Assembly (NCBI GenBank): GCA_963978545.1
Contig: OZ021731.1
Location: forward strand, 28,244,593-28,308,592
DNA from: Linyphia triangularis
Taxonomy: Eukaryota > Arthropoda > Arachnida > Araneae > Linyphiidae
Length of the DNA: 64,000 bases
Reading direction: 5' to 3'
Position 1 is the stretch's first letter. Every line of letters starts with the position of its first letter. The position numbers were made by a program, and so were the translations under genes. Shown here piece by piece: positions 1,073-61,689 of this stretch. The notes under the pieces were generated by a model that was not told the DNA's origin, made no database searches, and saw nothing but the letters and a program-made list of their open reading frames with translations.

Positions 1073-1273
1073 ATGTTTAACATTTTCTACAAATATTGTA
1101 TCGTGCCAATGTGCAAAAGCACGACCATAACAACTCCTGACAAAATTTTCATTCACGTACCACGGAATGAAAATATTCGTAAAAAGTGGTGCCAAGCAAT
1201 GAAGAGGGAGAAAGAAAAGTATATGCCACTGTCGACAAAGTCTGTACGTTATGTTTGTGAAGATCATTTTGAA
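1073..1273 (+). CDS. THAP domain, N-terminal half (alternative first exon)
   Basis: This 67-codon exon starts at an ATG and encodes the first half of a C2CH THAP zinc finger, a sequence-specific DNA-binding fold. Visible elements are YKYCIVPMC (first Cys pair, about residues 6-14), the conserved P in IFIHVPR, KKW, and CEDHF, which supplies the last Cys and His. It ends exactly at a GTAAGT donor (1274-1279) after GAA, in phase 0, so the in-frame stop further on is intronic. No matching second THAP exon is seen before the next module at 3139. The shared exon at 4701 starts in phase 0 with the expected continuation, so this looks like an alternative first exon of the same gene. Family is confident; splicing partner is inferred. 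Confidence 0.8.
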
Positions 1274-1389
1274 GTAAGTTACATTTATGGTAATTTTTAT
1301 AAAAGGAAAATTAAAAAATGTTTGCCTTTTAAGTTTAAAACAAGCTATATGTTAGGAAAGCTATTCTAAATTTTTGTAAAGGGTTAAAA

Positions 1390-1543
1390 TTCAAAGTCCG
1401 ACACGGATTCTGCGCCAAGAATTGTTTACATAAAACCACGCCAAATTAAATTCACTTGTCATTAAAAAAAAAATGGCGGGGCTGCCATTTTTGGGCAAAA
1501 ATCACTTTGCCGCAGAATCCGAGCCGTAGTTGGATATTGAATT
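1390..1543. mobile_element. small MITE, CGGATTCTGCG ends
   Basis: About 155 bp with imperfect inverted ends (CACGGATTCTGCGCC and GCCGCAGAATCCG). Similar sequence recurs at 31255-31410. It lies just inside the intron after the first THAP exon. Confidence 0.5.
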
Positions 1544-1548
1544 ATTGT

Positions 1549-2096
1549 TGATATTATTATTCCAAGCACAACAAAACCATTCAATTTAATTAAAGCAGGA
1601 AATCTTACCAATTGGCTTTTACACCATGGGCTTCCGCTGTTCCAAAATCCACATTATTGATGAAATAGACAGCCATCATTGTAGAGTCAATTTTTAGCAA
1701 ACTGTCCGATTGTCCTCTTACAAAACCAGGCTCCATTTTCGCAATTAAATAAAAAAACAAATACTTACAAAATAGGGGACCAAAAATATTTGAGAAACGC
1801 CAACTACTAAGTAGAAACTACAGAGTATAACAGACAACAAGACGGACATAACAATAAGACGGAGCGAAGGGATTACGTCGTCGAAGTGAAGGATCTCTTG
1901 ACGTCATAATCAAAATCGGCCCATTTTGAACGGATCACAATTTGAGGGTTTTTTTGCGCATTTTCTTTTTTTAATATTTAAATAACTGATTTTTTAAAAG
2001 AACTTTTATTTGAATATTTAGAATTAGAAAGAAATTCTTTATAAAAAGAAATCAATTTTATTCGTTTTTAAAAAATGCGGGAATCGTCCATTACCA
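1549..2096. other. intergenic/intronic, TE-like end
   Basis: No gene is seen. 1946-2093 is related to the right part of the TTAA-type repeat (59961-60472), ending in ATGCGGGAATCGTCCATT. Confidence 0.35.
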
Positions 2097-2138
2097 TAGG
2101 GTAATGAAAGTATAGCATTCGGTAAAAAAAAAAATTTC

Positions 2139-2177
<39 letters not shown>

Positions 2178-2690
2178 CATTTCTCCACGTTATGGAACAT
2201 CCTGATTTCAAAAAAGCCGTCTACAAAAAATATATGTGTGTCTGTGGTCAGCATAACTCAGGAACAAATTGACCTAGGATGTTCAAATTTGGTGTGCCGG
2301 TGAGTGGTGACCACGAAACCTACCATTAAGGTTTTTGTTTAAATCGCGCATGCGCATAAGGAAAAATTCATGTTTTTCAATGGCAGTTACCTTAAGCGCA
2401 TGCGTGATTTTCACAAAAACCTTAATGATAGGTCTCGTGGTCACCACTCACCATTGAACATTGGTTAGTGGTGACATTGAAAAATTCATGTTTTTCAATG
2501 ATTGTTAAAAAACGGCTCTAATGATTTTAATAAAAATCGCTGTGGTAATGCCTCTTAAGGTGTTCTAAACATCTCCACCTCCAAAATTCCCGTAAAAATA
2601 CTTAAATGGCTTAAAAAGTTGAAAAACGAATGCCTTTAACACAGAGTTCTGTTTCTTTGAGTATCAAAAATCATTTTTTCTCCTCTCGTC
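2097..2690. repeat. dispersed repeat C, with T tract and hairpin
   Basis: Copies also lie at 26870-27115 and 41213-41840 (interrupted by a SINE); all share GTGGTCAGCATAA-type sequence and AACGGCTCTAA. This copy has a T run of about 38 (2140-2177) and an inverted repeat with arms near 2297-2350 and 2396-2452. Its class is unknown; the wording resembles non-coding parts of Helitrons or DNA transposons. Confidence 0.6.
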
Positions 2691-3138
2691 CGTTTTACTT
2701 ATAATAAGAAAGGATAATATAATATTTATTAAAAAGTAAATCGCAGTAAGTTTTTTTTTTTTTTAAGACATACAAGAGTTATGGTACAAAATATTGCCAA
2801 ACTGGTAATTTTTTTCTAAATGAATGAGGAAAATATAAAAACGGTAATTGACACAAATTGGCATCGGTATTATAGTGTAATTGAAAGTTGTGCGATGTTC
2901 CACACCCCTAGTTCATAACGTTAACGTTTTTTGTAATAAAATATAAAAAGCTTAAGCGCGTTTTCATTTTTAATCAGCCATCCCTCTACATTCACCACAT
3001 CCTATTATTCTTCAATCCGAATCAAACCACGCCCCTATTCAACCTTCAAAAGCGCCACCTAGGTCGATCTACGTCACAAGCGCCCAATTCCTTCCCTTCC
3101 TCACTCCTCAGTACTAGTAAACAAAAAAAACACGCGAA
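2691..3138. promoter_or_regulatory. 5' flank/promoter region of THAP exon 3139
   Basis: Mostly AT-rich with no gene. The last 80 bp has more balanced composition, with TACGTCAC (3070-3077) and a TCAGTA initiator-like site near 3107, suggesting transcription starts about 30 bp before the ATG. Confidence 0.35.
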
Positions 3139-3351
3139 ATGTCTGCCGATTTGAAGAGGACCAGGTACAAGTACTGCATTGTGCCCCTGTGTACCAGCAC
3201 CACAATCAGTACTCCGGACAAGGTGTTTGTGAGTATTCCCAGAGAAAGAAAAAGTCGCAGAAAATGGTGCGACGCCATGAGAAGAGACAGAAAGAAGAAC
3301 GTAGTTCTTTCCGACGTTAGCGCTCGGTATTGTTGCGAGGATCATTTCGAG
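3139..3351 (+). CDS. THAP domain, N-terminal half (alternative first exon 2)
   Basis: This 71-codon exon encodes MSADLKRTRYKYCIVPLC and continues as a THAP first half: the CxxxxC pair, the STPDKVFVSIPR segment, KKW-like RRKWC, and CCEDHFE at the end. It stops at a GTGAGT donor (3352-3357) in phase 0. It is clearly paralogous to the exon at 1073. The 5' flank has a TACGTCAC site (3070-3077) and a TCAGTA initiator-like motif near 3107, so it probably has its own promoter. The rest of the finger (LETDVENY through GVIPHIFECQ) is supplied by the exon at 4701, also in phase 0. Confidence 0.85.
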
Positions 3352-3357
3352 GTGAGT

Positions 3358-4199
3358 GGTTGGTGGGGGCTTGCAACTCTAGTAAAAGAAGTTGTTGCAT
3401 CTGATTTTTCATGGCGTAAGATCCTACTCGAGAGCTATACTCTGCTCGGACATTGTTACAAAAGATTTGCTTATAATGACTTGGTAGGAAAGGTGTTTCT
3501 CGAGGGGATTTCCGCGTCCAAAATACGAAATTTGCCTGTTACGAATATTTCGGTTTTTCTCCCATTCGAGACTAAAATGTGACAGTTTCTCTTGAGAGAC
3601 CTTCGCGAAAATCGTTGATACAGAGCCCCCCCCTTCCCCCTTCCCCCAGTCGTCGTTGTGTAATCGATGCTTGTGGCATTAACCCTATGACGGTGTCATC
3701 CGAATCCAGTTCCAACAACCCATCCACGCTAAATTTGGAATGCCCGAGCTGACTTCTGCCAGGAGAAAATCAGTGTTCATTTTCCGTTGATCGACGCGAT
3801 ATGACCCTAGAGTTGCCCTTGCTTCAATTAACTCAAATAAAATAAACCAAACTATTCCCTCAACCCGAATTGAGTGTCGACACTTTTTGGCTGAGTCATA
3901 CTGTACAGATAAGAGATTAGAAATACCAAACAATAAGGTATCCTCCCATACGGGATGCAAATGCGGGCAGTGTCCCTTGAACGACCTGTTATAAGACGTT
4001 TTCCTTTTTGAAATTCAATATCTCTCGAAACACCTCCCGAACGGCGTTCTTCCTCTACATGTACCTTGATCTGAAAATTCATAAAATATAAATGACACAC
4101 TTTTCCATTGTTGCGCCATTGTTTGAATCTCAAAAAAAAATTATATTTTTAATCACACTTAAATAATCGGACTCGTCATTTTGAATGCCTCGCCGTAAC
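3358..4199. other. intron, nothing recognised
   Basis: Intron between THAP halves 3139-3351 and 4701. It is less AT-rich at first, then contains a C-rich tract (3626-3648). No exon or repeat family was recognised. Confidence 0.4.
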
Positions 4200-4332
4200 T
4201 GTGTGTAGCTATGTGCGCTAACCGGAGTCGAACCAGAGACTCCTAGATCCGTAGACAGATACTCTACCGCTATGCAAAGGAGTACTCCAGTGCATAGAAG
4301 TTTTATCTGTTATTTGTATACGAGACCGCTAC
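4200..4332 (-). mobile_element. tRNA-derived SINE, family C
   Basis: On the minus strand it reads as a tRNA-like head with A-box-like TAGCGGTAGAGTATCTG and B box GGTTCGACTCCGG. A second copy lies at 4542-4672. It is not a functional tRNA because no acceptor pairing is evident. Confidence 0.6.
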
Positions 4333-4541
4333 ATAGCCACTTCCCAGTGAGTCGCGTAGTGAGTTGAGTTGCCTGCGCGTGAATTGAGAGCATGGAACAG
4401 TGAGTCGCTGGAGGTTTTGCTTGCTGTTTGGCGATGAGTCGCCAAAGATGCTGAGATGATAGTGTGGATGTCGTGCAGTAATTTCAGAAGGTGCCGATAG
4501 ATGGCAGCATGATTCAGTTATCCGATAGTTACCAATGTAGC

Positions 4542-4672
4542 GATGTGCGCTAACGGGAGTCGAACCAGGGATTCCTAGATACGTAGACAGATACACTACC
4601 GCTATGCAAAGGAGTACTCCAGTTCATAAAAGCTTTTTCTGTTATTTGTATACGAGACCGCCACATTGTACG
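4542..4672 (-). mobile_element. tRNA-derived SINE, family C, second copy
   Basis: About 85% like the copy at 4200-4332 over its length, including the B box GGTTCGACTCCCG. It ends 28 bp before the THAP exon at 4701, so SINE sequence supplies part of that intron's 3' region. Confidence 0.6.
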
Positions 4673-4700
4673 ATTCAAATGCCTGTGTTTTGAATTTCAG

Positions 4701-4912
4701 CTCGAAACTGACGTGGAGAACTATATGGTGTGGAAGATGATGGGCGGAAAGATAATGCTCAAGAAAGGAGTTATCCCTCATATTTTTGAATGTCAAAACA
4801 ATGCCCTCGGTCAATCCAAGAAACCCAAGAAGAAAAGCAAGGCTTACTCCTGCGCGGTCATGGGTTGCACCAGCAAACAGGAAAAAAACAACACAGGCGT
4901 CTCCTTTCACAA
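4701..4912 (+). CDS. THAP exon: end of first finger plus start of a second THAP finger
   Basis: The exon is preceded by a good acceptor (TTTTGAATTTCAG) and opens in phase 0. Its first half (LETDVENYMVWKMMGG, then GVIPHIFECQ) is the C-terminal part of a THAP finger with the AVPxxF-type ending. A lysine-rich stretch, KKPKKKSK, could serve as a nuclear localisation signal. It then begins another THAP domain, SCAVMGC, and the reading reaches VSFHK at a GTGAGT donor (4913-4918) in phase 2. The split codon is completed by the G at 7028, giving the hallmark HKFP. The product would carry two THAP domains in tandem, likely a nuclear DNA-binding protein. Confidence 0.85.
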
Positions 4913-5045
4913 GTGAGTCAAAGTCCATTAGCGTATTGTCTGTCTATTCTAAGAACAGCTCCCGCCAAGTCATCTAGCGTTGTATGTTGGCGTGGAAAGA
5001 AGATTAGTTCATGAAGGGACCCCCAGGGGAAAGACTTCACATTTA

Positions 5046-6763: not shown

Positions 6764-6775
6764 CTTAAAACCTTG

Positions 6776-7027: not shown

Positions 7028-7211
7028 GTTCCCAACACAGTTCGACTTGAAGCATGCTTGGCTTGAGGCATGCGGAAGAAAGAATTTGAGGCGCAACGCT
7101 TGGGTGTGCTCCAACCACTTTTCCGAAGACCAGTTGGACAGGACGAGCTTTCCACTCACACTGCACGAGAATGCAGTCCCGAACGTCTTCACTGCCTCTT
7201 ACCTAAAGAAT
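7028..7211 (+). CDS. THAP exon: body of the second THAP finger
   Basis: The acceptor ATGAAAG precedes a G that completes the split Lys codon, followed by FPTQFDLKHAWLEACG. The exon carries the conserved FP, the tryptophan of HAW, the CSNHF motif (last Cys and His of C2CH) and the NAVPNVF ending, so a complete second THAP finger is assembled with 4701-4912. It ends LKN at a GTAAGT donor (7212-7217) in phase 0, again with no stop codon. The remaining C-terminus must lie downstream; the common exon at 61162 is phase-compatible. Confidence 0.85.
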
Positions 7212-9147: not shown

Positions 9148-9218
9148 ATGGGATCGTGCGTGGCCTTCAATTGCACCAATAGAGCTTCGAAGAAGATACC
9201 TGGAATAACTTTTCATGG
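9148..9218 (+). CDS. THAP domain, exon 1 (start of a THAP module)
   Basis: ATG at 9148 with an AAAATGG context begins MGSCVAFNCTNR, a typical THAP N-terminus with the first CxxxxC pair, and reads to GITFH at a GTAAGT donor (9219-9224) in phase 2. The split Gly codon is completed at 12986, giving HGFP. The intervening 3.8 kb intron is made almost entirely of a nested transposon (9420-12209) and a palindromic MITE (12255-12902). Confidence 0.85.
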
Positions 9219-9419
9219 GTAAGTTCACTGTTATTGTAATTATCCTATCAATCTCAAGGTCATATGAGTTTTATGTTCTGGTTTGAAAAAAGCTGATAAC
9301 ATATGTTATAGTAACACAAAATTAATCGGAATTATAATGATAGTGAAAACAATTCAATCATTAAAAATTTTCCACACCTAGTTTTTATGAGATTTGTATC
9401 AAAATTAGTTTATACACAT

Positions 9420-12209
9420 TAGGGTGCGTCTTATATGCCACTAAAAATTAATTTTTAAATTTTAACGTGACACCCTTTCAAATTATTTCTTTTGGGGAGA
9501 AAATACGTGTAAAAATTTTGGGTAATTTAAATAAAATTTTGGGTAATTTAAATAAAATTTTGAGGTTGCTACCGGCAATTGAAATTACCACTATCGTGGA
9601 AAAAATCAAGTTTTTTCACTTTCAAGTATGAAAATGTGAGAAAAAGAAAAATCTCCATTTTCAGCTTTTTTATTACAAGTAATCATGAATAAACTTATTA
9701 CAAACATATGTAGTGTTTACAATGTACTTTGTGTACATATATTTTATCATGAAATGCTAATAATGAAACAAAACTGTGAGGTCGTTAATTTTTGTTTTGA
9801 AAGAAACTCGTGGTCATTGAAAAGTCATGGAATTTTTTTATTTTTTTTGTCCAAAGAGTACGAACCCTGATAGTTGGCCTTTGAGTTATATCAGGGTTTG
9901 TTTTCTTGTAGTAGGTTTTATCATTGAAGACAATGAAGTGTTGCCATGATGAAATTGATGATTTAGAAAACGTGTAGGTAATTTAAATTAATGTCACAAA
10001 TAGTGAGAAGGATTAAAATACATCAGTGGTTGGTTGGTCAAAATACCCATCAGTATGACACTATACTAAACTTCAACTTAACTAGACATCACTTAGACGG
10101 TAGATCGTCACAGTGCTCATAGGTATTTAATCCATTTTGGCGGCGTGAAAGCATAATGTTCGCCAAACCACAACCCTGTAGAGAACATAGATTAAAGACA
10201 CTTATAGATATGACACTCTGATTGGATTACCATTAAGGATTTTCTATATTGAAAGCGCCATAGAAACCAGCGCCCCCAGTAGTTTCGGTTGGAACTACAT
10301 TTGACGGCAACGCAACGCATGGTCGCTGATTGGCTGATTCGTTGCCATGGCAATGCGCATTGCTTGGATTGATGTTAAAGCTTCTTGTTTTTAGACTCCG
10401 AATGGAGACTTAACACACCCTCTTATGTTTCGTAACTTTAAATTTTATTCAACCAGCAGATTGGAGTTTTTTTTTATTAATTATAAAGTTAAAGTTGCAG
10501 TCGAATTTATTTGCTAAATTAATTTTATTTAATGCGCAAATAAAATTAGTTTTTTTTTAAAATTCTTATTAGGTTGTGTTAAAGCTTTGTAATAAGAAAT
10601 TAGCAGCAGAAAATATCACCAAATACCTTTTTATTTATTTTGAACGAACTTTTTCAATGGATGAATTACTGAAACATTGCATTTTGAAAATATATCAATA
10701 TATTTTTACAAAACTGTATTGACGTAAGAAATTTTTTTATACATTATTATTATTATTATTATTTTTTTTTACAAGTAAGTTCTTGCTTGCTTTTAACTAC
10801 AGGTAAAGTTTATATTTCAAATACAATTTTACAAATAAAGTTTAAATGCTTCATTAAATACTAAAAATAATGATAATAAAATTAAAAATATAATATTACC
10901 AACAATATTAATAAAATATCGACAACTTTAATATAAAAACAACAACAAGAAGAATATAAAACACAATAATAATAATAATAAAGGAAGACACACACAGCAA
11001 TCTCAATAAATTATTACCAAGAAATAATTCGTTGTTATTTTTTCATAAAATGAAATGAAATCTCAATTAGATATGCAAATAACGTAAGTGCATGAGAATT
11101 TTAACTCGTAATTAGCTTTTAATATAAATTGAATCAAAATATTAAATCTTCCAATTAAAATCAAACGATAATCTAACAAATAAAATTAAATCTTCGCTAT
11201 GTCGTTAGAATAACAAAAATAGAATTTTTTACAATTCTATTTTTTGTTAACATTTATTTCGCCATGAAAGCATTTTTAAATATTTTAAATATTTTTAAAA
11301 ATCATAAATTTTATTTTTTATTATTTAAAAAACAAAAAAATGTGATACAAAATGTAAAAGCATCCAAGATTCCAATCAACCAATCAATCTTTGAAGATAT
11401 ATTAGTTCGTTTAGTAACTACTGGGGGCAGAATCGGTCAGAATGAGTTGACAGTCTAGAGAATACTTAGTCTATGGTAGAGAACAAAAGGCTATAAGGTT
11501 TGGCGAGAATTATGTCTTCACTCCGCCAAAATGGATTAACTGCCTTATGAGCACTGTGACGATCTATCGTCTAAGTGATGTCTAGTTAAGTTGAAGTTTA
11601 GTATAGTTTCAATAAACAGACAGCTGATTAAAATCATTAGAAAGCAAAGAAAAGCCACATGCAGTTGCATCAGAAAAAAAGTGAACATAAATAAGGAAAT
11701 GGTTGTGTTTACTCTCAAGAAACAGTTCAATTATTACGATTAATGCAGTTTTACAGAGCGTGGTGTAGCTTTTTTAATTACAAAATTGAGGTTGGAAATT
11801 ATAAAGAGAAGATAAATATTGAAGTAATGATTGTTAAAGCCCATCAATTAAAGAAATCTTTTCAAAATGTCAACTTTAGTACTTTTTAAAATATTAGTTC
11901 TTCAGTTAAAATTGATATGAATTACTTGGACTAAAACCCATATAAGCTACTTGAAGCATAATATATGTAATGATTCAATAATTACTGGCTGAACAATAAA
12001 ATATTCTTATAAATACATGAAACACATTAATTGCAATGCTTGCTTAATGCTAAATTTGTCACATTTTGCAGAGCTGGTAGCAACCTCTAAATATCATTTG
12101 ATTTCAATAAAAAAAAAATGTGATTTTTTTTTTCTCTCATCAAATGGAACACAATGAGAGGGTGTCCCGTAAAAAAAATTAACGCCTTACGAAAATAAGA
12201 CGCCCCCTA
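9420..12209. mobile_element. 2.8 kb non-autonomous element, TAGGG ends, 8-bp TSD
   Basis: Inverted ends (TAGGGTGCGTCTTAT and its near complement GACGCCCCCTA) with subterminal pairing; target duplication ATACACAT at 9412-9419 and 12210-12217. An 8-bp TSD fits hAT or P superfamilies. No transposase ORF; the interior is AT-rich and hosts the mariner-type element at 10064. It fills the intron of the 9148 THAP module. Confidence 0.8.
10064..11603. mobile_element. Tc1/mariner-type non-autonomous element, long form
   Basis: Terminal inverted repeats of about 80 bp beginning TACTAAACTTCAACTT, flanked by TA. The ~1.3 kb interior is very AT-rich with no transposase. It is nested in 9420-12209. The short form at 30367-30607 has the same ends. 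Confidence 0.85.
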
Positions 12210-12254
12210 ATACACATTCGAGGTAGACTCAGTAAAGTTCTTTCTTCCTTTATA

Positions 12255-12902
12255 GTCCGAGAGGCGACTGCAATTTTTGGACCCCATCGAACATCATTCT
12301 GAATTTTTTATAGAAAAGTGAGTAGATTACGAATCCACTGGTCTGCCGTGGCAAAATTGGCCGAAACTGGTCGAAAATCGACTTGGAAGGAGTTGAACTA
12401 AAATCCGATTGCCAAACATGTCATAACTTGCCAAAAATAGACCAAACTTATTCTTCTGGCAACCCACTTCATTTTGATTTTCAATGAGAAAAAGCGCAAA
12501 CGATTTCTGATCTTTGGCTCGGAAAACTTATATCTTTTAAAAGTAAGCCAAATTGGCGACATCAGTTACGTCATAAGTAACGTAATATTTTTTGCCAACT
12601 TGGCTCCCTTTTAATAGATGCAAGTAGACCGTCGCCAGATATCTGAATCGTCTGCAACCTTCTTAATTGAAAACTAAAGAGTGAAGGTTACCAAATTAAA
12701 AAAATGCTCATTATTTGGCAAGTTATGGCGCATTTGGCAATTGGATTTAGTTCAACTTATCAAAAGTCGATTTTTGACCAGTTTCGGCCATTTTTGCCAC
12801 GGCAGACCAGTGGATTCGTAGTGTACTCACTTTTCTCTAATTTCTATAAAAAATTCAGAATGATGTTCGATGGGGTCCAAAAATTGCAGTCGCCTCTCAG
12901 TC
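12255..12902. mobile_element. palindromic MITE family E, copy 2
   Basis: TA-flanked foldback, ends GTCCGAGAGGCGACTGCA and TGCAGTCGCCTCTCAGTC. Its centre has TACGTCATAAGTAACGTA. It ends 84 bp before the THAP exon at 12986. Confidence 0.9.
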
Positions 12903-12985
12903 TATTAAACTTGCTTGCATTTGTCGTTGCATAATTTGAATACTTTCCCATGAAACACTAAATCGCAGCACTTCCTTCCACGCAG

Positions 12986-13178
12986 GTTCCCTAGGGACAA
13001 AATTCGCCGCGATTCGTGGATACTCGCTGTTCGTCGCATGGACTGGATGCCCACCAAATGCAGTAAGCTCTGCTCGGCACATTTTCCGGAAGAAATGATT
13101 GACAGAACGTCACTGTCATGTGTGAGACTGAGGGACAACGCCGTGCCATGCATCTTTGATTTTTCACCTCAAGAGAAG
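12986..13178 (+). CDS. THAP domain, exon 2 of the 9148 module
   Basis: A strong acceptor (CTTCCTTCCACGCAG) is followed by FPRDKIRRDSWILAVRR, then CSKLCSAHF (zinc Cys and His) and LRDNAVPCIF, the AVPxxF-type terminus. With 9148-9218 this makes one complete THAP domain of about 85 residues. The exon ends QEK at GTACCC, a weaker donor, in phase 0. It is sandwiched between two same-orientation palindromic MITEs (12255-12902 and 13372-14028) that share private variants. Confidence 0.83.
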
Positions 13179-16255: not shown

Positions 16256-16443
16256 ATGGAGATGGAACTTCCGGAGTCTTTCACCAATAAAATTATTGAA
16301 ACGAAAAACAATGCTATTACAATACGCAGCAGTGTTCGAAATATGGACGAGATAAAGCAATGGGTGAGTGAATATGGAGAAGCTACGAATACTAATTGGA
16401 ATTCGAGAACTTCAAAACCTGCTGGGCAAAGGATTGTGTGTAT
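16256..16443 (+). CDS. FAR1/MULE-type DNA-binding module, exon 1
   Basis: ATG at 16256 (context ACAATGG) opens MEMELPESF and continues through MDEIKQWVSEYG and NTNWNSR to QRIVC. This matches the N-terminus of the DNA-binding region found in arthropod Mutator-like transposases and their domesticated relatives. The reading reaches a GTAAGT donor (16444-16449) in phase 2. A CRE (TGACGTCA, 16014-16021) lies about 235 bp upstream. The open frame extends further 5', but the ATG with best context starts here. Confidence 0.72.
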
Positions 16444-17592: not shown

Positions 17593-17746
17593 GAAGAAAT
17601 ATGTTTGTCACCATAGTTCATTTTGTAAAGTATTGCCAGAGAAAAACAAAAGAAGCTTTTCGAAAAATTCGTCTTGTCCTGCAACAATTAACTTCAGAGT
17701 GAAACTAGAGACAGCAAAGACGAAGAAGAGTGACAGCTTTTTACAA
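17593..17746 (+). CDS. FAR1/MULE-type DNA-binding module, exon 2
   Basis: The acceptor AATTCTTAG is followed by a G that completes the split codon, then KKYVCHHSSFCK, SSCPATINFRV and a lysine-rich tail to SFLQ. The two cysteine-bearing motifs are the central zinc ligands of the FAR1/WRKY-GCM1-like finger. The donor GTTAGT (17747-17752) is in phase 0, matching the next exon at 19986. Without exon 3 the zinc site would be incomplete. Confidence 0.75.
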
Positions 17747-19985: not shown

Positions 19986-20285
19986 GAAGGATTGCCCTGC
20001 ATCATCCGAATAATCGACAACCACAACCACAGCATAAACACTGCCGAGTCTCTGAGATTTCTGCCAGCTACCGCCGAGTGCAAAGACAGTTTCCTGAGGT
20101 ATTTCAACGCCGGCATGGGCACTGCGGAAGCTTGTAAACACCACGAAGAGGTATTGCGACTGAAGGCTGGCTTCGACGAAATGATGGTGGCCAACAAGCG
20201 GTTCAACCCATCTCCCCGCGCCGTACAGCACTGGTTTGATCAGTGGCGTATCGGAAACTTGGAACCAAGATCTGGTACGAGGGCG
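19986..20285 (+). CDS. FAR1/MULE-type DNA-binding module, exon 3
   Basis: A good acceptor (CAAAATTTCAG) opens EGLPCIIRIIDNHNHS, whose HNH supplies the His ligands that close the FAR1-like zinc finger. AESLRFLPATAECK, EACKHHEEVLRL and NPSPRAVQHWFDQWR follow, as in the region after the finger in MULE-like proteins. It ends SGTRA at GTAAGT (20286-20291) in phase 0. No transposase DDE core or terminal exon follows, so the module appears to be a DNA-binding region only, either domesticated or a truncated transposase. Confidence 0.78.
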
Positions 20286-22746: not shown

Positions 22747-24171
22747 ATGGAGGAGCTAGAAGATCTCGACTTCCTCGAAAGCCTGGACATGATACAGAAT
22801 CTGGAAAATCCCGATTCTGATGAGGAATGGGAGCCGGGAGACGACGATTTCGACTGCGTAGATGTCGTCAAGAAGAAGGCCAACAGAAAAAGTTCCCGTC
22901 AAAGGAAGCAGACGGAAAGATGGAAGCCGGAGACCTCGAGCATAAGAACCCGAGCCAAAAGAGCCGCCAAGAAAGTCATCAAGAAGAACTCTCAACTGAA
23001 TGCCCTGTTCCATATCGAAAAGGTGAACGATGTGGTACCTCCTGCAGAGATCTTTGAGAATGAACTTGCCACCAACTCGGATGATATCTCCGAACCTTTG
23101 GAATCCTCTGAAGCGTCCGATTACGAAAACTTCTGTGACGATGCAGAGTACAGACCTACTTCAAAGTCGCCATCGTCGCCCAAGAGTTCTTCAGAATCCA
23201 CGAGCAAGGCAAGTATCGATGTGGACTCTCCCGAAGTCATTGATATCGAACCAGTAGACCTTGAAGTGGTTTTCAACTCTGGCGATAAAACGAGCACTCC
23301 ATCACCGCAACCCATCGATCCCAAGATTGCAACTAGCGCTTCCGCACCGAACTGCAAAGTCAACAGCATCGATCTTGAAGTCAAATTAAGCCCTCCCGAA
23401 TCCGACTTCTGTGCTAACAAACCATCTATCGATTCCAACGCCGAAACGACGTCCCTACCACCGAATTCTGACGTCAACGAACAGTCCATCGATCCTGTTA
23501 CGAAAATTGCCACTCCCAAACCAAGCGGCGTCGTCGATGAACAATCAATCGATTCGCATGCCGAAATAGCCTCTTCCAAATCCAATTGCGACTCCAGAAA
23601 ACGATCCATGGATCCCGACATCGGGATAATCACTCCTAGACCAGATTGCGACGACGTCGAAATAACCGCACCACCACCAAACAGCGACCTCAAGAAGCAA
23701 AAACCCAAGACTAACATCAAAACCTCGACTCCCCGATCGCAAGTGGACAAAGGATCCGACGTCAAAACGTCCGCTTCGAAACGTAAAAACGACGTCGGCA
23801 AGGAAAACGTCGCCAAAACGACCGCCGGAAACGACAACTGGGTGGACTGGACTGACGACTTGATCCTCCGCTTCATAGATGAGTACAGACAGAGACATGT
23901 TCTCTGGGATTTCAACGACCCTTACTACAAATCGAAGGAGAGGAAGCGCAAGGCGTGGCTGGAGTTGGTCGAGATCTTCCAGATGGACGTCGTGGAACTG
24001 AAGCGGAAGATGAGCTGTTTGATGGCGAGCTACAGGAAGGTCTATAAGAGGATTCGGCAGTATAAAGCCAAGACGGGAAGGAGCTACAAGGTGACTTGGT
24101 TCGCGTTCAAGAGCTTCGCTTTCTTGAAAAGGAAGTACAAGCCGGAGGGACCAAAGGTCAAGTTGATGAGG
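22747..24171 (+). CDS. MADF-domain protein, long first coding exon
   Basis: A 475-codon exon. The N-terminus is acidic, followed by basic KKKANRKSSRQRK-type sequence (possible NLS) and a low-complexity centre. Residues about 189-330 consist of roughly seven degenerate ~20-residue repeats built on SID...I.TP.P. The C-terminal ~95 residues (from about 368, WTDDLILRFIDEYRQR) form a MADF domain, a Myb/SANT-related DNA-binding fold, with WDFNDPYY, RKAWLEL and WFAFKSFAFLK. The donor GTGAGT at 24172 ends it in phase 0 after LMR. The open frame continues to 24459, but that tail lies in a palindromic repeat and is most likely intronic. A GTTACCACGGCAAC RFX-like site lies at 22604-22617. Confidence 0.88.
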
Positions 24172-29268: not shown

Positions 29269-29457
29269 ATGTCTCAACGGTATCGGTGTTGTGCAGTACC
29301 ATGCTGTACAAGTACTACAATTAAAACCCCAGAGAAGTTGTTTATACATGTGCCCAGGAAAGCAGATGTACAAAAAAAGTGGTTGATTCTTGCAAGAAGA
29401 GAACCAATTAAGTTTTCACCACAGGCTACGATTCACTTCTGTGAAGATCATTTTGAT
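29269..29457 (+). CDS. THAP domain, N-terminal half
   Basis: ATG at 29269 begins MSQRYRCCAVPCC and continues STTIKTPEKLFIHVPR, KKW and HFCEDHFD, the same THAP first-half architecture as 1073 and 3139. It ends at GTAAGT (29458-29463) in phase 0. A perfect CRE (29197-29204) lies about 65 bp upstream of the ATG. The second half is at 31558. Both exons lie inside a pair of terminal inverted repeats (28646 and 32496), so this module may have arrived on a transposon. Confidence 0.87.
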
Positions 29458-31557: not shown

Positions 31558-31719
31558 TTGCCAAAAGATATGGCGAATTATATGGAATACAAATTGATGG
31601 GTTCCGTCAAAAGAATGCAAATGATAGAAGGATGTTTACCTACCAAGTTTGAATGCCAAATGGATCGAGGAAAAAGGATGTCTTCCAAAAGAATCCCGCC
31701 ATCAAAACATCAATTTCGG
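31558..31719 (+). CDS. THAP domain, C-terminal half
   Basis: A strong acceptor (TTTTTAATTTCAG) opens in phase 0 with LPKDMANYMEYKLMGS and reaches GCLPTKFECQ, the conserved end of this THAP subtype, then a basic tail (KRMSSKR). The donor GTAAAT (31720) leaves phase 0. Joined to 29269-29457 it gives a complete THAP finger. The in-frame stop some 50 bp later is in the presumed intron; an unspliced read-through form ending near 31770 is possible. Confidence 0.83.
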
Positions 31720-34103: not shown

Positions 34104-35016
34104 AAGTGAACTAAAAAGTAGAAAATAATTTTAAATAAGTTTGAAATAAGAATAGAGTGATTAACAAGAAATATTTATTTTATCGTAAAAAAACGCGGGG
34201 TGCTTTTTAAGATATTTTCATAATGGCTCTACTTTTACCAATATATATACAACAATTGACATCAAGCACCCCACGCTTTTTTACGATAAAATAAATATTT
34301 CTTGTTAATCACTCTATTCTTATTTCAAACTTATTTAAAATTATTTTCTACTTTTTAGTTCACTTTTCTATTAAAGCGTATTTTTTAGTTTTTTAAACTA
34401 TTAATTATTTTCTACTTTTTAGTTTGGTTTTCTATTAAAGCGTGTTTTTTAGTTTTTTAAACTATTAATTATTTTTTCTGTAAACTATAAATTTTTTTTA
34501 GTTAATTTTTTTAGTTAAGTGTACAAAACTCTCCAGTTGTTCTTGCCAATAGTCACATGCTTGTCCCAAATTTAATTCATGTGTGAGCCTTAGTACACGC
34601 CGTATTACTATTCACAAAACACTACCTTGTCTCTGAATATGATAAATCACTAATCCTGAAGATCCTGGTAAGGATAATGCGACTAAAAAAAACACGCTTT
34701 GTATAATCGTCATTCCCACGACAAATCTTTCAAATGTCTGCCTTATCAACTGTCGATGATAGGTTCTGTGATTGCTGGGATTGTAACGACACACCAGGGT
34801 TCGATTCCGGAGAAGGTTGGTTGGTTGGAATTTAACGGCGCAAGGGCAACACGAGCTAATCCTTGTGATAAAGCGACAAACTTATTGAATTATTGTATTG
34901 TCATCGGTCATTAAAAAGTATTCCAAATTTCGAGTTAATCCGACGTTTTGAGGAGGGTCAAAATCATGTTCAAAAATTCCGTTACATACTAACATACGTC
35001 TGAAGCTAATAGAAGC
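34104..35016 (-). repeat. inverted duplication, left copy
   Basis: Reverse complement of about 47640-48526. It contains a ~250-bp internal hairpin (GCACCCCACGCTTTTTTAC arms), repeats of ACTTTTTAGTT and ATTAAAGCGTGTTTTTTAG, a tRNA-like B box GGTTCGATTCC and a GCAACACGAG segment like SINE A. A ~98-codon frame is present but has no recognised domain. Confidence 0.75.
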
Positions 35017-35086
35017 GTGTTAAAAATGAACCGGTTCGGCATAGATATATTTTTTTTTAATTTTCATTAATATAATATAAGTAGTT

Positions 35087-36782
35087 GCTTTCTTAAAAGT
35101 ATTTTTAAAAAACCCACTGTATTAAATCCAAATCCATCAGCTTCTTAGTCAGGGGTCAACAGACTTTTCTGCCCTAAGAGTCAAACATTCAATAATCAAT
35201 GCTTTCTTAAAGGTATTTTTAAAAACCCACTGTATTAAATCCAAATCCATCAGCTTCTTAGTCAGGGGTCAACAGACTTTTCTGCCCTAGGAGTCAAACA
35301 TTCAATAATCAATGCTTTCTTAAAGGTATTTTTAAAAACCCACTGTATTAAATCCAAATCCATCAGCTTCTTAGTCAGGGGTCAACAGACTTTTCTGCCC
35401 TAAGAGTCAAACATTCAATAATCAATGCTTTCTTAAAGGTATTTTTAAAAACCCACTGTATTAAATCCGAATCCATCAGCTTCTTAGTCAGGGGTCAACA
35501 GACTTTTCTGCCCTAGGAGTCAAACATTCAATAATCAATGCTTTCTTAAAGGTATTTTTAAAAACCCACTGTATTAAATCCAAATCCATCAGCTTCTTAG
35601 TCAGGGGTCAACAGACTTTTCTGCCCTAGGAGTCAAACATTCAATAATCAATGCTTTCTTAAAGGTATTTTTAAAAACCCACTGTATTAAATCCAAATCC
35701 ATCAGCTTCTTAGTCAGGGGTCAACAGACTTTTCTGCCCTAGGAGTCAAACATTCAATAATCAATGCTTTCTTAAAGGTATTTTTAAAAACCCACTGTAT
35801 TAAATCCAAATCCATCAGCTTCTTAGTCAGGGGTCAACAGACTTTTCTGCCTTAAGAGTCAAACATTCAATAATCAATGCTTTCTTAAAGGTATTTTTAA
35901 AAACCCACTGTATTAAATCCGAATCCATCAGCTTCTTAGTCAGGGGTCAACAGACTTTTCTGCCCTAGGAGTCAAACATTCAATAATCAATGCTTTCTTA
36001 AAGGTATTTTTAAAAACCCACTGTATTAAATCCAAATCCATCAGCTTCTTAGTCAGGGGTCAACAGACTTTTCTGCCCTAGGAGTCAAACATTCAATAAT
36101 CAATGCTTTCTTAAAGGTATTTTTAAAAACCCACTGTATTAAATCCGAATCCATCAGCTTCTTAGTCAGGGGTCAACAGACTTTTCTGCCCTAGGAGTCA
36201 AACATTCAATAATCAATGCTTTCTTAAAGGTATTTTTAAAAACCCACTGTATTAAATCCAAATCCATCAGCTTCTTAGTCAGGGGTCAACAGACTTTTCT
36301 GCCCTAGGAGTCAAACATTCAATAATCAATGCTTTCTTAAAGGTATTTTTAAAAACCCACTGTATTAAATCCAAATCCATCAGCTTCTTAGTCAGGGGTC
36401 AACAGACTTTTCTGCCTTAAGAGTCAAACATTCAATAATCAATGCTTTCTTAAAGGTATTTTTAAAAACCCACTGTATTAAATCCGAATCCATCAGCTTC
36501 TTAGTCAGGGGTCAACAGACTTTTCTGCCCTAGGAGTCAAACATTCAATAATCAATGCTTTCTTAAAGGTATTTTTAAAAACCCACTGTATTAAATCCAA
36601 ATCCATCAGCTTCTTAGTCAGGGGTCAACAGACTTTTCTGCCCTAGGAGTCAAACATTCAATAATCAATGCTTTCTTAAAGGTATTTTTAAAAACCCACT
36701 GTATTAAATCCAAATCCATCAGCTTCTTAGTCAGGGGTCAACAGACTTTTCTGCCTTAAGAGTCAAACATTCAATAATCAGA
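35087..36782 (+). repeat. 113-bp satellite array, 15 copies
   Basis: Units begin GCTTTCTTAAAGGTA, with period 113 bp (first unit 114). Variants (CCAAATCC or CCGAATCC; CCCTAGGAG, CCCTAAGAG or CCTTAAGAG) recur as a three-unit pattern in units 10-12 and 13-15, indicating higher-order amplification. Each unit contains CAGGGGTC followed by ACTTTTCTG, like a hAT 5' end. Confidence 0.95.
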
Positions 36783-40565: not shown

Positions 40566-40916
40566 ATGTCCGAAGCGAAAAAGTCACGCACATCGGCTCT
40601 GAAGCTGTCCGAGAACAATACCATGCGGCTGATCGAATTGTACAAGAGCGAGCCGTGCCTGTACGACGTGTACTCGGATGAGTATAGGAAACGGGAGATG
40701 CGTACTGCTGCGTTGAAGCGCGTTGCGGCTGCGTTGTCCGTCGACGGATTCGGCCCCAAGGAGATTGCGACCAAGTTCCAGAATTTGAGGAATTCTTTTT
40801 CGCAAGAACTGAAGAAGATTGGGGACAGTAAGAATGGTCATGTACCGAAGGTGTATTGGTTTACTGTCATGGACTCTTTCCTGCGTCCTCAGATGTATAT
40901 TCGGCCATTTAATCCT
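40566..40916 (+). CDS. MADF-domain module, single exon
   Basis: A 117-codon exon starting at ATG 40566. Residues about 19-107 form a MADF domain: MRLIELYKSEPCLYDVYSDEY, KRVAAALSVDGFGPKEIATK, FQNLRNSF and VYWFTVMDSFL. The short N-terminus is basic (EAKKSRTSALK). It ends FNP at GTAAGT (40917-40922), phase 0. MADF proteins usually carry a BESS-type C-terminus, and the exon at 61162 supplies a BESS-like one in the matching phase. Upstream lie an LTR-like sequence and a dense TTGGCGA motif cluster. Confidence 0.88.
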
Positions 40917-45788: not shown

Positions 45789-45998
45789 ATGCCACCGAAA
45801 AAATCTAACCTCAACAACGCGGGGAGCAGAGAGGCACGACGCAGTCGTGTTGAAAGAGCTCATCTGTCGGCAGAGCAAATCGCAACAAGAAATGCAGCTC
45901 AGAGAATCAGGACAGCAGAGCGTCGTGCACAACAATCTCAAGAACGTCTGCGACAAACTATTACGAGAACAGTTTTACAGCGAAACAATACTTCTTAC
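45789..45998 (+). CDS. Helitron preamble-like exon
   Basis: A 70-codon exon: MPPKKSNLNNAGSREARR, then HLSAEQIATRNAAQRIRTAERRAQQ, highly basic and helical. This resembles the repetitive basic preamble of Helitron and PIF1-like helicase proteins. An acceptor (ATTATTTTCAG) lies 4 bp before the ATG, implying an upstream non-coding exon; possible donors are near 43838 and 45617. It ends at GTAAGA (45999) in phase 0. No Rep or helicase domain follows, so it is either a decayed Helitron or a captured module. A related fragment is at 56330-56500. Confidence 0.55.
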
Positions 45999-47319: not shown

Positions 47320-47529
47320 ATGAGTTTCCGTCCTAGATCCATGGAGCTCTTCTCCACACGCAATGGCCGGCCGTGTCTGGACGGCTACCAGTACCGGCTT
47401 CAGAAGATGTGCGGGTCCAACATCAGGTGGCTGTGCTTGAAGGAGAAATGTAAAGGGAGTGTGACTTCCAAGCCAATGTTGTCAGCAGGAAGGATCATGT
47501 TTGTGTACGGAATGAGTGAAGGACGAAAA
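47320..47529 (+). CDS. degenerate FLYWCH-type zinc finger module
   Basis: ATG 47320 opens MSFRPRSMELFSTRNGRPCL, then GYQYRLQKMC, WLCLKEKC and KGSVTSK: the F, GY.Y, W.C and C positions of a FLYWCH finger, a DNA- or protein-binding fold related to Mutator transposase fingers. The expected C-terminal His pair is missing, so zinc binding is doubtful. A GTGAGG donor at 47530 would end it in phase 0; otherwise the frame runs to a stop at 47571. A TATA-like TTATAAG lies about 30 bp upstream. An inverted duplication begins about 70 bp after the stop and may have truncated it. Confidence 0.6.
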
Positions 47530-47639: not shown

Positions 47640-48526
47640 TTAACACGCTTTTATTAGCTTCAGACGTATGTAACGGAATCTTTGAACATGATTTTGACAC
47701 CCTTCAAAACGTCGGATTAACTCGAAATTTGGAATACTTATTAAGGACCGATGACAATACAATAATTCAATAAGTTTGTTGCTTTATCGCAAGGATTAGC
47801 TCGTGTTGCCCTTGCGCCGTTAAATTCCAACCAACCAACCTTCTCCGGAATCGAACCCTGGTGTGTCGTTACAATCCCAGCAATCACAGAACCTATCATC
47901 GACAATTGATAAGGCAGACATTTGAAAGATTTGTCGTGGGAATGACGATTATACAAAGCGTGTTTTTTTCAGTCGCATTATCCTTACCAGGATCTTCAGG
48001 ATTAGTGATTTTTCATATTCAGAGACAAGGTAGTGTTTTGTGGCTAGTAATACGGCGTGTACTAAGGCACACACATGACTTAAATTTGAGACAAGCATGT
48101 GACTATTGGCAAGAACAACTGGAGAGTTTTGTACACTTAACTAAAAAAAATTTATAGTTTACAGAAAAAATAATTAATAGTTTAAAAAACTAAAAAACAC
48201 GCTTTAATAGAAAACCAAACTAAAAAGTAGAAAATAATTAATAGTTTAAAAAACTAAAAAACACGCTTTAATAGAAAAGTGAACTAAAAAGTAGAAAATA
48301 ATTTTAAATAAGTTTGAAATAAGAATAGAGTGATTAACAAGAAATATTTATTTTATCGTAAAAAAGCGTGGGGTGCTTGATGTCAATTGTTGTAAATATT
48401 TAATGACAGATATTGGTAAAAGTAGAGCCATTATGAAAATATCTTAAAAAGCACCCCACGCTTTTTTACTATAAAATAAATCTTGTTAATCACTCTATTC
48501 TTATTTCAAACTTATTTAAAATTATT
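47640..48526 (+). repeat. inverted duplication, right copy
   Basis: Reverse complement of 34104-35016, including the hairpin with GCACCCCACGCTTTTTTAC arms. It begins about 70 bp after the FLYWCH frame. Confidence 0.75.
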
Positions 48527-57801: not shown

Positions 57802-57812
57802 ATATTTAAATC

Positions 57813-58260
57813 CTTTATATATTAACTGCGATTTTGTGCCTGCTGGGGAAATTTGTGGAAGTGTATTTAACAAACTTGCCGTCATCCAATCGGGTTGAAA
57901 CTTTCCAGATAGATTCGATGGCGATGACAATGCATTCTATCAAGTTTTGGGCGCTGTCAGTGTCACTAAAAGTCCGTTTTTACACACGCATCGATCTTCG
58001 AGGTACTGATAAACCAATTTGCCGTCATCCAATCGCGCTGAAGTTGTACAGATATATTAGGTGTCGATAAGGTTACATTCTATCAAGTTTTGGAGGCTGT
58101 CACTAAAAGGCCACTTTTACACATGCTTCTATTGGCACTTGATATTTTTAATAAACATACTTCCCGTCATCCAATCGAACTGGAACTTTGAAACATTGTC
58201 GATGACAATGTTTTCTATCAAGTTTTGGGATTGTCGCTTTTACACAAGTTTCTATTGTCT
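57813..58260 (+). repeat. repeat H, copy with four internal units
   Basis: The GCCGTCATCCAATCG...TTCTATCAAGTTTTGG unit is repeated about four times here (57878, 58020, 58145 and a partial), showing that the family's core is itself tandem. Confidence 0.6.
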
Positions 58261-58816
58261 TAACCCTTCGAGAATTATACAATTCTTACAGGGAAAAGAA
58301 ATGTTTTCATTAAAAATGTTTTAACAGCTCTGACCTTACCAATACTTGCCGCTAATCGTAGAACACAAATAATGCTTAATACCTCAAAATTAACCCACAA
58401 TTTTTTTTTCCTGTAAAAATGTCTAAGAATATTTCTTAGTTTATTCCTCAACCTGACGAACTAAGCTGCACGAAACGTAAAAAAAAAACAGCGGGTGGGA
58501 TTTTCAAGGTCGAAGAGCTGACTCATCTAAATCCTCCAAAAATTGTCAACACCACGCAGTGTGCCGCATCTTCCCTGCCAACCGATTCATCACCATGGAA
58601 ACCGTTCTTCAACTTCTAAACCAGATGTGACGTCACCGTAAAATTCGAAAAGCGCGCAACAAGTCGGAGGTGTCATCTTGAGCTATCTCGAAAAAGTATT
58701 TAATGTAAAGTATGGGTTGATTAGGAAGGTTAAAGCAGCGACATCCTATTGGTTTGGATACGGAGAGCGTTGAACCTAAAAGGTATGGTATGTTTTGAAT
58801 TCACGCATAGTATATA
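58261..58816. other. no gene recognised; contains CRE
   Basis: GTGACGTCACCG lies near 58628 in a balanced-composition stretch (58490-58680) that resembles module 5' flanks, but no ORF with a domain follows. Confidence 0.3.
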
Positions 58817-59404
58817 GTACGAGAGGAGAATTCAATTTTTGGACCCCATCCAACATCATTCTGAATATTTTATAGAAACTAGAGAAAAGTGAGTAGATTA
58901 GGAATCCACTGGTCTGCCGTGGCAAAAATGGCCGAAACTGATCAATAATCGACTTGGAATGAGTTGAACCCACTTCATTTTGATTTTCAATAAGAAAAAG
59001 TGCAAACGATTTCCGATCTTTGGCTCGGAAAACTTATATCTTTTAAAAGTAAGCCAAATTGGCGACATCAGTTACGTCATCCGTGACGTAATGTTTATTG
59101 CGGCTTCCTTTAAATAGATGCAAGTAGACCGTCGCCAGATATCTGAATCGTCTGCAACCTTCTTAATTGAAAATTAAAGAGTGAGGGTTACCAAATAAAA
59201 AAAATGCTCATTATTTGGCAAGTTATGGTGCATTTGGCAAATAGGATTTAGTTCAACTTATTAAAAGTCGATTTTTTATCAGTTTCGGCCATTTTTGCCA
59301 CGGCAGACCAGTGGATTCGTAATCTACTCACTTTTCTCTAATTTCTATAAAAAAATTCAGAATGATGTTCGATGAGGTCCAAAAATTGCATTCGCCTCTC
59401 AGTC
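58817..59404. mobile_element. palindromic MITE family E, copy 7 (internally deleted)
   Basis: TA-flanked. About 65 bp is missing after GAGTTGAACC. The centre retains TACGTCATCCGTGACGTA. Confidence 0.88.
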
Positions 59405-59661
59405 TAATAGCTCCAGCTAATTGGCATCTGGTTGTGAATTGGTTACAAAGAAGGGAGATGGGTTGTCACCTCGCCTTAAAACTTAAATAATTGTTATTCT
59501 AAGTCCACTGATCTCTCTTTCTGTAAGCCAGATAGCTATGAGGTCAAACTATATAGTGTTCAATTGTTTTTATCCATACCATGACTTAAGTTGAAACGTA
59601 ACGTATAGGTTTTTTTCTATTGCTACTTTTTATCACTTGATAAATACCAATTTTCTTACAG

Positions 59662-59880
59662 CAATTATGCAAAGCAGGAAATGCTTGCGACGTGAACTGC
59701 ATGGTTGGATTTGTTACCGAAACCCTATGACATACAAGAGTGCGAAACTTCTGAAGAAAAACAGGATGCAAGCTTAAAATTTTTCCTATGTGCCTCTTTA
59801 ATTTAAAATGTTGTGTGAACTATTGTAAATTGATTGAAACTGTCTGCAATATTTAATAAAGTTTGTTACATTGTTGTCTG
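59662..59880 (+). other. candidate alternative terminal exon with poly(A) signal
   Basis: A pyrimidine-rich acceptor (AATTTTCTTACAG, ending 59661) is followed by a short phase-0 reading of 22 residues (QLCKAGNACDVN...) to a TGA, then AATAAA at 59855-59860 and a GT-rich stretch. This is a plausible alternative 3' end about 1.3 kb before the common exon. A phase-2 reading gives a longer basic peptide. No domain is recognised. Confidence 0.35.
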
Positions 59881-59960
59881 CTGAACTGTTAGTTCAGTTA
59901 ATCACTTCACCTCACTCAACTAATCTCTCACCAATCGAACGCATAGGAGGTTGCCTTTAA

Positions 59961-60472
59961 GCAATGGACAATTCCAGCATTTTTTAAAAACGAGTGAAAT
60001 TATTTTATGTTTATGAAGAATTTCTTTCCGATTCCAAATATTTCAACTAAAGTTCTTTAAAAAAAGTAGTTATTTAAATATTAAGAAAAAAAAAAAATGG
60101 CCTAAAACCAGTCCGAACAAAACACTTAACAAAATATGTGACGTCAAAGCTTCCTTCCGTTTGTATGGTTATCGTAAGGTTTCTGCCAAATAGTTGCCGT
60201 TGGTAGACCATTGCCATATCCCGAACATGTTTTGAGATAAACTTGCAAAACTGGTTTCCGCTGCCGCATTTCAAATCAAGATGTTTGGGAAGCTTTGACG
60301 TCACATTCAATTCGAGCCGAATGAATCGTTTTCTCGCCAACTTGTAACAGGGAACTTTGATTGCAATTTTTTTTTTTAAAGCGCATTGAGCAGAAATTTT
60401 TCTGTTTATGGTCTTTTCAAAACATTTAGAACTAAATAATAAATTTAAAAAAATACGGGAATTGTCCATTGC
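59961..60472. mobile_element. repeat F, best copy, TTAA duplication
   Basis: Ends GCAATGGACAATTCC and GAATTGTCCATTGC, flanked by TTAA (59957-59960, 60473-60476), as in piggyBac-type non-autonomous elements. Related copies at 17778 and 21311. Confidence 0.8.
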
Positions 60473-60846
60473 TTAACTGTTTTCATTCAATCACTAGAGA
60501 CTGTCCCATATCATTTATTAATTGGTATATCAAATATCAATATCTCTTGATATGATATTTGTGTGATATCTATGTGATATTAAGAAGTACCCAAAATTAT
60601 GGTGAAAGAAAATTTCATAATGTAAAAGAGGGTTTATTGTATCCTTAAGATTCTTACAACTTACAGATGTAATAATTCAAGATGATTTTTTATTTTAGTA
60701 GGTTTCATTTTAAATAATGCGTTAAAATATAACATGTTTTAAACGTACATTGCGTAAATCATTTTACGAGCGATATCCCGCCAATTCTTACAGCAAGTTT
60801 CCGTATAGCAACCCTAACGAAACTATCTGGACAATTTGGGTCTCCT

Positions 60847-60903
60847 TGCGCATGCGCACTCGCTATTATACAGTGCCTTTTGACGCCACCCTCGCCATAT
60901 AAA
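60847..60903 (+). promoter_or_regulatory. NRF1-like palindrome and TATA box upstream of the common exon
   Basis: TGCGCATGCGCA (60847-60858) matches the NRF1 consensus, and TATAAA follows at 60898-60903. They lie ~260-315 bp before the common exon and could drive a short transcript; no clear first exon is seen. Confidence 0.35.
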
Positions 60904-61161
60904 CTCTCTAGTATTTTTCTTTCTAATTATCTTATCACATTTATATTGCGCTTTGATATTTCCTATGCTGTTTTTGATAACGTTATTTGAATTGTGTGTG
61001 TGGCATAAAAATCTAGCATCTCTCTAAGTTACGGTCGCATCCATTTCATTGCAATTGTTTTGTTCTTTTTCAAGAATATTTTAAAATCGAATGTTCATGG
61101 AAAATAATTCCGAAGTCGGTGTAATTTCTTCCGAGTTATTTATGTCTGGTTTCTTTTTCAG

Positions 61162-61689
61162 AAAGCTGCAGCCGCTGCTTCCGAGAAACCAGCAACCAGT
61201 TTGGAACCCGAAATAATTATCAAGGAGGAGCCCATAGATGTGGAAGAAATGGACATCAACCAGCCATCCACTTCTCAAACCGAATTCATCCTGCCCAACT
61301 CATCCACCAGCCCTTCCACTTCCAGTGCTGTCACCCCTTCGCTGGGAATAGCCTATTCCGTGGCGGACTTAAAGAAAGAAAAATCGACGAGTCCATTGTC
61401 GAACGGGGGTAAGCACGCATCCACTTCAAGCTCAAAGAGGACCAGTGCTCGAAACAAAAAGCAAAGACTTGAAAGCGACGTCGCTGTCGAGACCGTCTCG
61501 ACTTTAGATTCCGCCCTGGAATCCGATTCCGCCAATGACAGACCCAATGATCAGTTTGATGCGTACGGAGAGTACATCGCGGCCAAGCTCAGGAAGTTAG
61601 ACTGGAAGTCGCGTGCTTATGTTCAGAAGGCGATCGGAGATATCATGTTTGAGGCTGAGATGGGAAAGTTTAAGGAGGAGTCGCCGTAA
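61162..61689 (+). CDS. common C-terminal exon with BESS-like motif (terminal coding exon)
   Basis: A strong acceptor (TTTCTTTTTCAG) opens in phase 0; 175 codons follow to TAA at 61687. It starts KAAAASEKPATSLEPE, then IIIKEEPIDVEE, a SUMO-type psi-K-x-E motif in an acidic run. A Ser/Thr/Pro-rich linker and a basic patch (KRTSARNKKQR, possible NLS) follow. From about residue 130 is DQFDAYGEYIAAKLRKLD and then the helix ending FEAEMGKF, resembling the BESS-like C-terminus of arthropod MADF proteins, a protein-interaction region. There is no DNA-binding domain here, so it must be joined to an upstream exon; all modules in this window end in the matching phase. Confidence 0.88.
   Translation, partial: KAAAAASEKPATSLEPEIIIKEEPIDVEEMDINQPSTSQTEFILPNSSTSPSTSSAVTPSLGIAYSVADLKKEKSTSPLSNGGKHASTSSSKRTSARNKKQRLESDVAVETVSTLDSALESDSANDRPNDQFDAYGEYIAAKLRKLDWKSRAYVQKAIGDIMFEAEMGKFKEESP

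Follow-up and report, generated by a model that had tools for sequence, protein, structure and literature searches.

What use could be made of a row of unlike DNA-binding exons that each end at a splice donor is the question raised by a 64 kb stretch of the 1.35 Gb genome of the spider Linyphia triangularis (assembly GCA_963978545.1, contig OZ021731.1, here C12, positions 28,244,593 to 28,308,592), hereafter the window, from the first base of which all positions are counted. The answer proposed here, and very probably the correct one on the evidence of the sequence, is that the window holds one transcription-factor locus built as a 5'-cassette gene, in which unlike modules would be spliced onto a shared tail. 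Each module would consist of one to three exons, with its own ATG, a DNA-binding-type domain and a donor in phase 0 at its end. A transcript begun at one module would bypass the modules downstream of it, and splicing at 61162, a phase-0 acceptor, would supply the tail, in which a SUMO-type motif is combined with a disordered linker and a pair of helices. The resulting isoforms would differ in their DNA-binding domain and share a C-terminal effector or oligomerisation tail. The splicing in L. triangularis, the separate promoters and the biochemical role of the tail are what we infer; the exons, their phases and their relatives in other spiders are described below.

The layout agrees with that of a 5'-cassette gene in both order and phase. 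On the plus strand a tandem series of variable exons precedes a constant 3' exon. As the first-pass annotation of this DNA had it, a terminal exon opens in phase 0 at 61162; it encodes 175 amino acids and runs to a stop at 61689, and no other terminal coding exon is seen in the open reading frame lists of the window. The ten donors listed in that annotation are all GT sites on the plus strand, each within an open frame and in phase 0. Donors were then scored by one rule, from the domain end to the in-frame stop, with a self-made matrix drawn from the donor consensus and thresholds of 2 for window exons and 3.5 for exons downstream of the tail. The best-scoring donor is in phase 0 in all 11 window exons, eight of them outlets and three internal, and all eight outlets match the phase of the constant acceptor. 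Introns within the modules are in phase 2 or 0, so that it is the outlets that are uniformly in phase 0. Credible coding is restricted to the plus strand, as had been claimed: six-frame Pfam scans of the window gave THAP, MADF, FLYWCH and a weak DUF3475 there. Coding on the minus strand was considered and set aside, its sole Pfam match being a weak one to Pcf11_C (E = 7e-4). A search of the window against Rfam gave nothing at gathering thresholds.

The modules belong to different Pfam families (THAP, MADF, FLYWCH and others), and the cassettes are thus not paralogues of each other. Three THAP-like first exons, A at 1073-1273 (Pfam THAP, 2.1e-11; phase-0 donor GTAAGT, score 8.0), B at 3139-3351 (Pfam THAP, 1e-8) and C at 29269-29457 (recognised by comparison with relatives and donor scoring), break off within the domain, with HFE or HFD ahead of the donor, and a second-half exon is therefore needed. 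The phase-0 donors at 1273, 3351 and 29457 split THAP domains and were rejected as module outlets. Of the ten donors taken as outlets in the first-pass annotation eight can stand, whereas at 1273 and 3351 the THAP is half complete, and the exon at 4701 would be needed for the rest. Exon B is followed by 4701-4912, which holds a THAP-like second half and the first part of a classical THAP domain, in an order matching Oedothorax P0003, and ends in phase 2; the classical THAP domain is completed in 7028-7211 (Pfam THAP, 9.8e-9), with its outlet in phase 0. Exon C continues into a THAP-like second half at 31558-31719, recognised in the same way, with a phase-0 outlet. A further classical THAP domain is split over 9148-9218, found by alignment with relatives, and 12986-13178 (Pfam THAP, 1.2e-10; outlet phase 0). 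The FAR1-like module has three exons, 16256-16443 with the ATG (tblastn with P0009, 49% identity), 17593-17746 (tblastn) and 19986-20285, which ends at a phase-0 outlet.

The remaining modules are single exons with phase-0 outlets: a large acidic N-terminus followed by MADF at 22747-24171 (Pfam MADF, 1.2e-15; donor 10.7), a MADF module at 40566-40916 (Pfam MADF, 4.3e-16), a basic arginine-rich module at 45789-45998 with no significant Pfam match, and a FLYWCH-type module at 47320-47529 (Pfam FLYWCH, 7.2e-5; 23.3 bits against a Pfam cut-off of 23.6; donor 7.8). Among the domain labels of the first-pass annotation, THAP and MADF are borne out by Pfam and FLYWCH falls just under the cut-off, whereas FAR1 (20285) and Helitron (45998) find no significant Pfam match in the window; indirect support is given by relatives with matches to FAR1 (E = 0.014) and STPRs (E = 3.9e-8), but the STPR protein P0012 has no match to the 45789 exon. 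The exons 4701-4912, 9148-9218, 16256-16443, 17593-17746 and 29269-29457 had been overlooked.

The prediction that different modules are joined to a shared tail is supported by other spiders, in which the tail occurs behind N-termini of unlike kinds. With the tail as query 15 proteins were obtained at E up to 1, and the 14 named ones are all from spiders, of seven genera; a profile search yielded 23 proteins, 16 of them with the tail when their sequences were read by eye. The tail is carried by 21 relatives across both searches. A Pfam scan of the window tail together with 20 of these relatives (P0007, a near-duplicate of P0006, being left out) gave THAP in four proteins, Tc5 helix-turn-helix (HTH) in three, CENP-B_N in three and MADF in two, while Mutator, STPRs, Integrase_H2C2 and FAR1 occur once each. 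Tc5 HTH, CENP-B_N, Mutator, Integrase_H2C2 and THAP are transposon-type DNA-binding domains. Four Larinioides proteins (P0008, P0009, P0010 and P0018), presumably encoded on one contig, since the longest contig recorded for each has the same length, have an identical 191-aa C-terminus and differ in their N-termini, and isoforms X2 and X3 of Argiope LOC129974965 (P0017 and P0021) have 205 aa in common. The claim that different DNA-binding N-termini share one tail is matched in this way by gene models in seven other spider genera, and modules of the THAP-like, FAR1-like and MADF types are seen again in relatives among the araneids. When the FAR1-like module and the tail were used together as query, seven proteins were returned, all previously found; P0009 and P0012 were missed by it, and the searches for relatives are therefore non-exhaustive.

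That the tail is the only one of its kind, as had been claimed, holds within the window but not in Araneus, Larinioides, Caerostris and Oedothorax, which have two or three. In the tail tree the window tail groups with Oedothorax and two further proteins (98/95), and two tails each are present in Araneus, Larinioides and Caerostris and three in Oedothorax. The tail pairs of Araneus and Larinioides would predate the split of these genera, with moderate support (85/84 and 100/99) on long branches.

The position of the junction was compared by aligning proteins made from window modules plus the tail with the relatives. Three modules, the FAR1-like one, MADF 40566 and the double THAP, are collinear through the junction with P0009, P0022 and P0003, respectively. 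The FAR1-like junction lies at most about one residue from the start of the shared tail in P0009 (107/213 residues identical in the module and 64/171 in the tail) and close to the tail start of P0012 (77/213 and 59/171). The junction of MADF 40566 is at most about two residues from the matching point in P0022, and Oedothorax P0003, with a longer linker, runs collinear with the double THAP (75/177 and 81/156 identical). Three other pairs agree less neatly: extra sequence separates the module from the tail in P0010 and, when compared with the 9148-13178 THAP, in P0024; P0015 is identical to the latter module at 35 of 86 aligned positions.

Several observations weigh against the 5'-cassette reading. 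The proteins of the relatives are gene predictions, and 7 of the 23 found in the profile search have THAP-like or FAR1-like modules without the tail. The searches yielded no tail-bearing relative for the large MADF, 45789 or FLYWCH modules. Only 30 of 103 residues are identical between MADF 40566 and P0022, which leaves the two as possible orthologues, and two outlet donors are weak, those at 13178 (score 5.0) and 45998 (score 4.1). Furthermore, an integrase-type module at 125091-125540, 70% identical to a tail-fused module of Caerostris, is located approximately 63 kb downstream of the tail, a position that is unexplained by a simple cis model.

The alternative that survives best, although it is unlikely and in part overlaps the 5'-cassette reading, is that most of what is seen as modules is transposon debris within a large intron, and that one or two, such as the FAR1-like module or the double THAP, belong to the gene. 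The repeat-rich character of the window speaks for it, as do the three module types lacking a tail-bearing relative in our searches and the THAP-like exon A, which sits in a dispersed element of about 150 copies. Against this, MADF 40566 and the FAR1-like exon are low-copy sequences: the former has 7 genome matches, the next best of which by score is 34% identical, and exon 3 of the latter has 12, the next best being 61% identical. THAP-like B has no other match above 62% identity among the 150 scored of 1558 candidates, and the recurrence of THAP-like, FAR1-like and MADF modules in araneids is likewise at odds with debris.

The element around exon A (793-2092, plus strand) measures about 1.3 kb, is bounded by terminal inverted repeats (TIR) and also occurs at -13286 to -11963 and in two fetched dispersed copies on contigs C8 and C10 (L031 and L032). 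The first-pass annotation counted 1073-1273 among the modules of the locus; the exon has the Pfam domain but lies within one copy of this dispersed transposon. For the exon type, 150 genome matches were scored of 1558 candidates, and a word covering its donor region has 154 genomic occurrences, against none in the reversed control, when either base is allowed as the first of the donor. The THAP exon is less diverged than its flanks in all six copy pairs, the divergence of exon and flanks being 3.2% and 13.7% for the pair at the locus (p = 8e-6) and 1.1% and 9.8% for the dispersed pair. Among the 100 places listed of the 154, the donor reads GT in 9 and AT in 91; both locus copies have GT and both fetched dispersed copies AT. 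This suggests either that the element acquired an exon of the locus and then lost the donor, or that old copies retained it. On a tentative view, to which we would give slightly less than an even chance, the locus may be a hub of domain capture, in which a single phase-0 tail exon would repeatedly, in the course of spider evolution, have recruited at least six unrelated, mostly transposon-associated kinds of DNA-binding domain and would still be fed by the THAP-carrying TIR element. If true, each new capture would re-aim the same effector tail.

Less probable still is that the modules represent separate tandem genes or relics, fused to the nearest strong terminal exon by the annotation of the relatives. 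Such fusion errors would be in keeping with proteins that are predictions, with the modules that lack a tail and with odd models such as P0024, in which THAP is followed by half a MADF, and P0018 and P0020, with repeated THAP-like second halves. However, gene models of seven named spider genera have the tail behind upstream domains, those of Argiope with isoform names, the FAR1-like junction falls at most about one residue from the donor in the window, and the window's open reading frame lists show no other terminal coding exon.

In 200 kb of flanking sequence 14 clusters of module matches are found, 13 on the plus strand and one, weak and stop-bearing, on the minus strand. The array spans about -41 kb to +125 kb, and the first-pass annotation's proposal to look for modules upstream of the window was thus rewarded; the upstream THAP outlet at -41040 is in phase 0. 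Downstream of the tail 11 exons were scored, two of which have no donor above threshold and one of which (77.0 kb) is an internal THAP-like exon. Among the remaining eight, one is in phase 0 (weak), four are in phase 1 and three in phase 2. Phase 0 in 9/9 upstream against 1/8 downstream exons has a hypergeometric probability of 8/19448 (~4e-4), to be read with the caveat that some downstream donors may be internal and two touch a stop codon. Two putative terminal exons of another family, at 140565-141395 and about 164604-166097 on C12, have SUMO-type motifs and no Pfam domain, and are related to each other, with FCVDQ and LPVDLNLVKKEV stretches in common. To judge from these sequences, the downstream array may be a second, similar modular locus, with the two exons as possible tails.

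That trans-splicing joins modules to the tail alongside cis-splicing is compatible with the 5'-cassette reading but highly improbable: the integrase-type module and a Mutator-type stretch, 39% identical to a tail-fused one of Argiope, do lie on the same strand downstream of the only tail, yet gene order could simply differ among species, all window modules are upstream of the tail and the exons at 140565 and about 164.6 kb provide other putative ends.

The tail itself has a recognisable motif and little else that is familiar. An invariant K-x-E-P motif is present in the tail, in line with the motif noted in the first-pass annotation; it reads IKEEP in the window, which we take, by the SUMO consensus, to be a SUMO-type site. 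The BESS-like end also noted there is not recognised by Pfam: the window tail gives no BESS match at E up to 10, and BESS is absent among the families listed (25 of 26) for the window tail and 20 relatives. A formal BESS domain was accordingly rejected, the same Pfam library detecting BESS (4.7e-9) in a neighbouring frame. This MADF-BESS frame lies on C12 at -59076 to -58477 (L010:924-1523) on the same strand, its MADF match being 2.2e-5. An AlphaFold2 model of the tail ends in a C-terminal helical pair but is poor overall, with a mean predicted local distance difference test score (pLDDT) of 59; no fold match was found for it at E up to 0.001, and the single match, at E = 6.7, is meaningless. 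The tail may serve in oligomerisation or cofactor binding. Genome-wide, a single strong copy of it turned up, with four weak relatives, one each on C1 and C10 and two on C5; from -100 kb to +214 kb the search showed no further tail of this family.

The two relatives on C5 (L003 and L004) are tandem tail-like terminal exons 4.9 kb apart, with apparent phase-0 acceptors by eye, and perhaps mark another locus of like design. The one on C10 (L005) is a tail-like frame about 120 bases from an opposite-strand DDE_Tnp_4 (Harbinger-type) transposase frame; a Harbinger origin of the tail was considered as a possibility from this proximity. Also on the plus strand of C12, the frames 113065-113463 and 152019-152795 resemble N-termini of the transposase helix-turn-helix type by eye. 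The repeats of the window include a 113-base tandem repeat at 35086-36780, with 15 copies 98% alike, and a large inverted repeat (34243-34989 and 47666-48399), the arms of which are 97-99% complementary and approximately 13 kb apart.

Among known systems, lola and mod(mdg4) of Drosophila have a shared N-terminal BTB domain and variable C-terminal DNA-binding ends, and trans-splicing has been reported for both. The spider locus resembles them in combining one common domain with many DNA-binding domains at one locus, with the polarity reversed; the opposite polarity had been claimed in the first-pass annotation, and the shared part is indeed C-terminal, while Pfam scans of the window in all six frames show no BTB domain. 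Capture of transposases by host proteins was reportedly described by Cosby et al. in 2021, and the captured-transposase factors are, as far as is known, single fusions at separate genes, unlike the many domain types on one tail exon in the spider locus. They are like the spider modules in bringing transposon-type DNA-binding domains into host proteins (survey PMC10027918). The terms "spider", "arachnid", "chelicerat", "alternative" and "fusion" do not occur in the main text of that survey, and no transcription-factor locus of this polarity was found among the listed papers by title and abstract start, a coverage that leaves most subscription journals outside. MADF-BESS proteins share with the spider locus a MADF N-terminus (in two modules) and a short helical C-terminal motif, but the spider tail is not a Pfam BESS and most modules are not MADF.

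The clustered protocadherins and UGT1A join variable first exons to a common C-terminal part. Alternative promoters are described for the former in PMC4835542. Unlike the spider locus, both encode membrane proteins or enzymes, and their first exons are homologous. The closest functional layout is that of the chelicerate sDscam genes, in which, according to the same source (PMC4835542), tandem 5' cassettes with alternative promoters are spliced to constant 3' exons, with some cross-cassette isoforms. These are likewise arthropod 5' cassettes spliced to constant 3' exons, but in sDscam the cassettes encode Ig domains that are paralogous to one another and belong to a cell-surface receptor, whereas those of the spider locus are unrelated, largely transposon-type DNA-binding domains. 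Such a layout has precedents among surface receptors and enzymes, whereas for the content none is known, as far as our searches go. If the reading is true, this would be a transcription-factor gene that varies its DNA-binding end through 5' cassettes, with donor domains, acceptor exon and intermediate stages in one locus, comparable across spiders. It would open the question of how transposon DNA-binding domains turn into host regulators, in a gene that would mirror lola and mod(mdg4).

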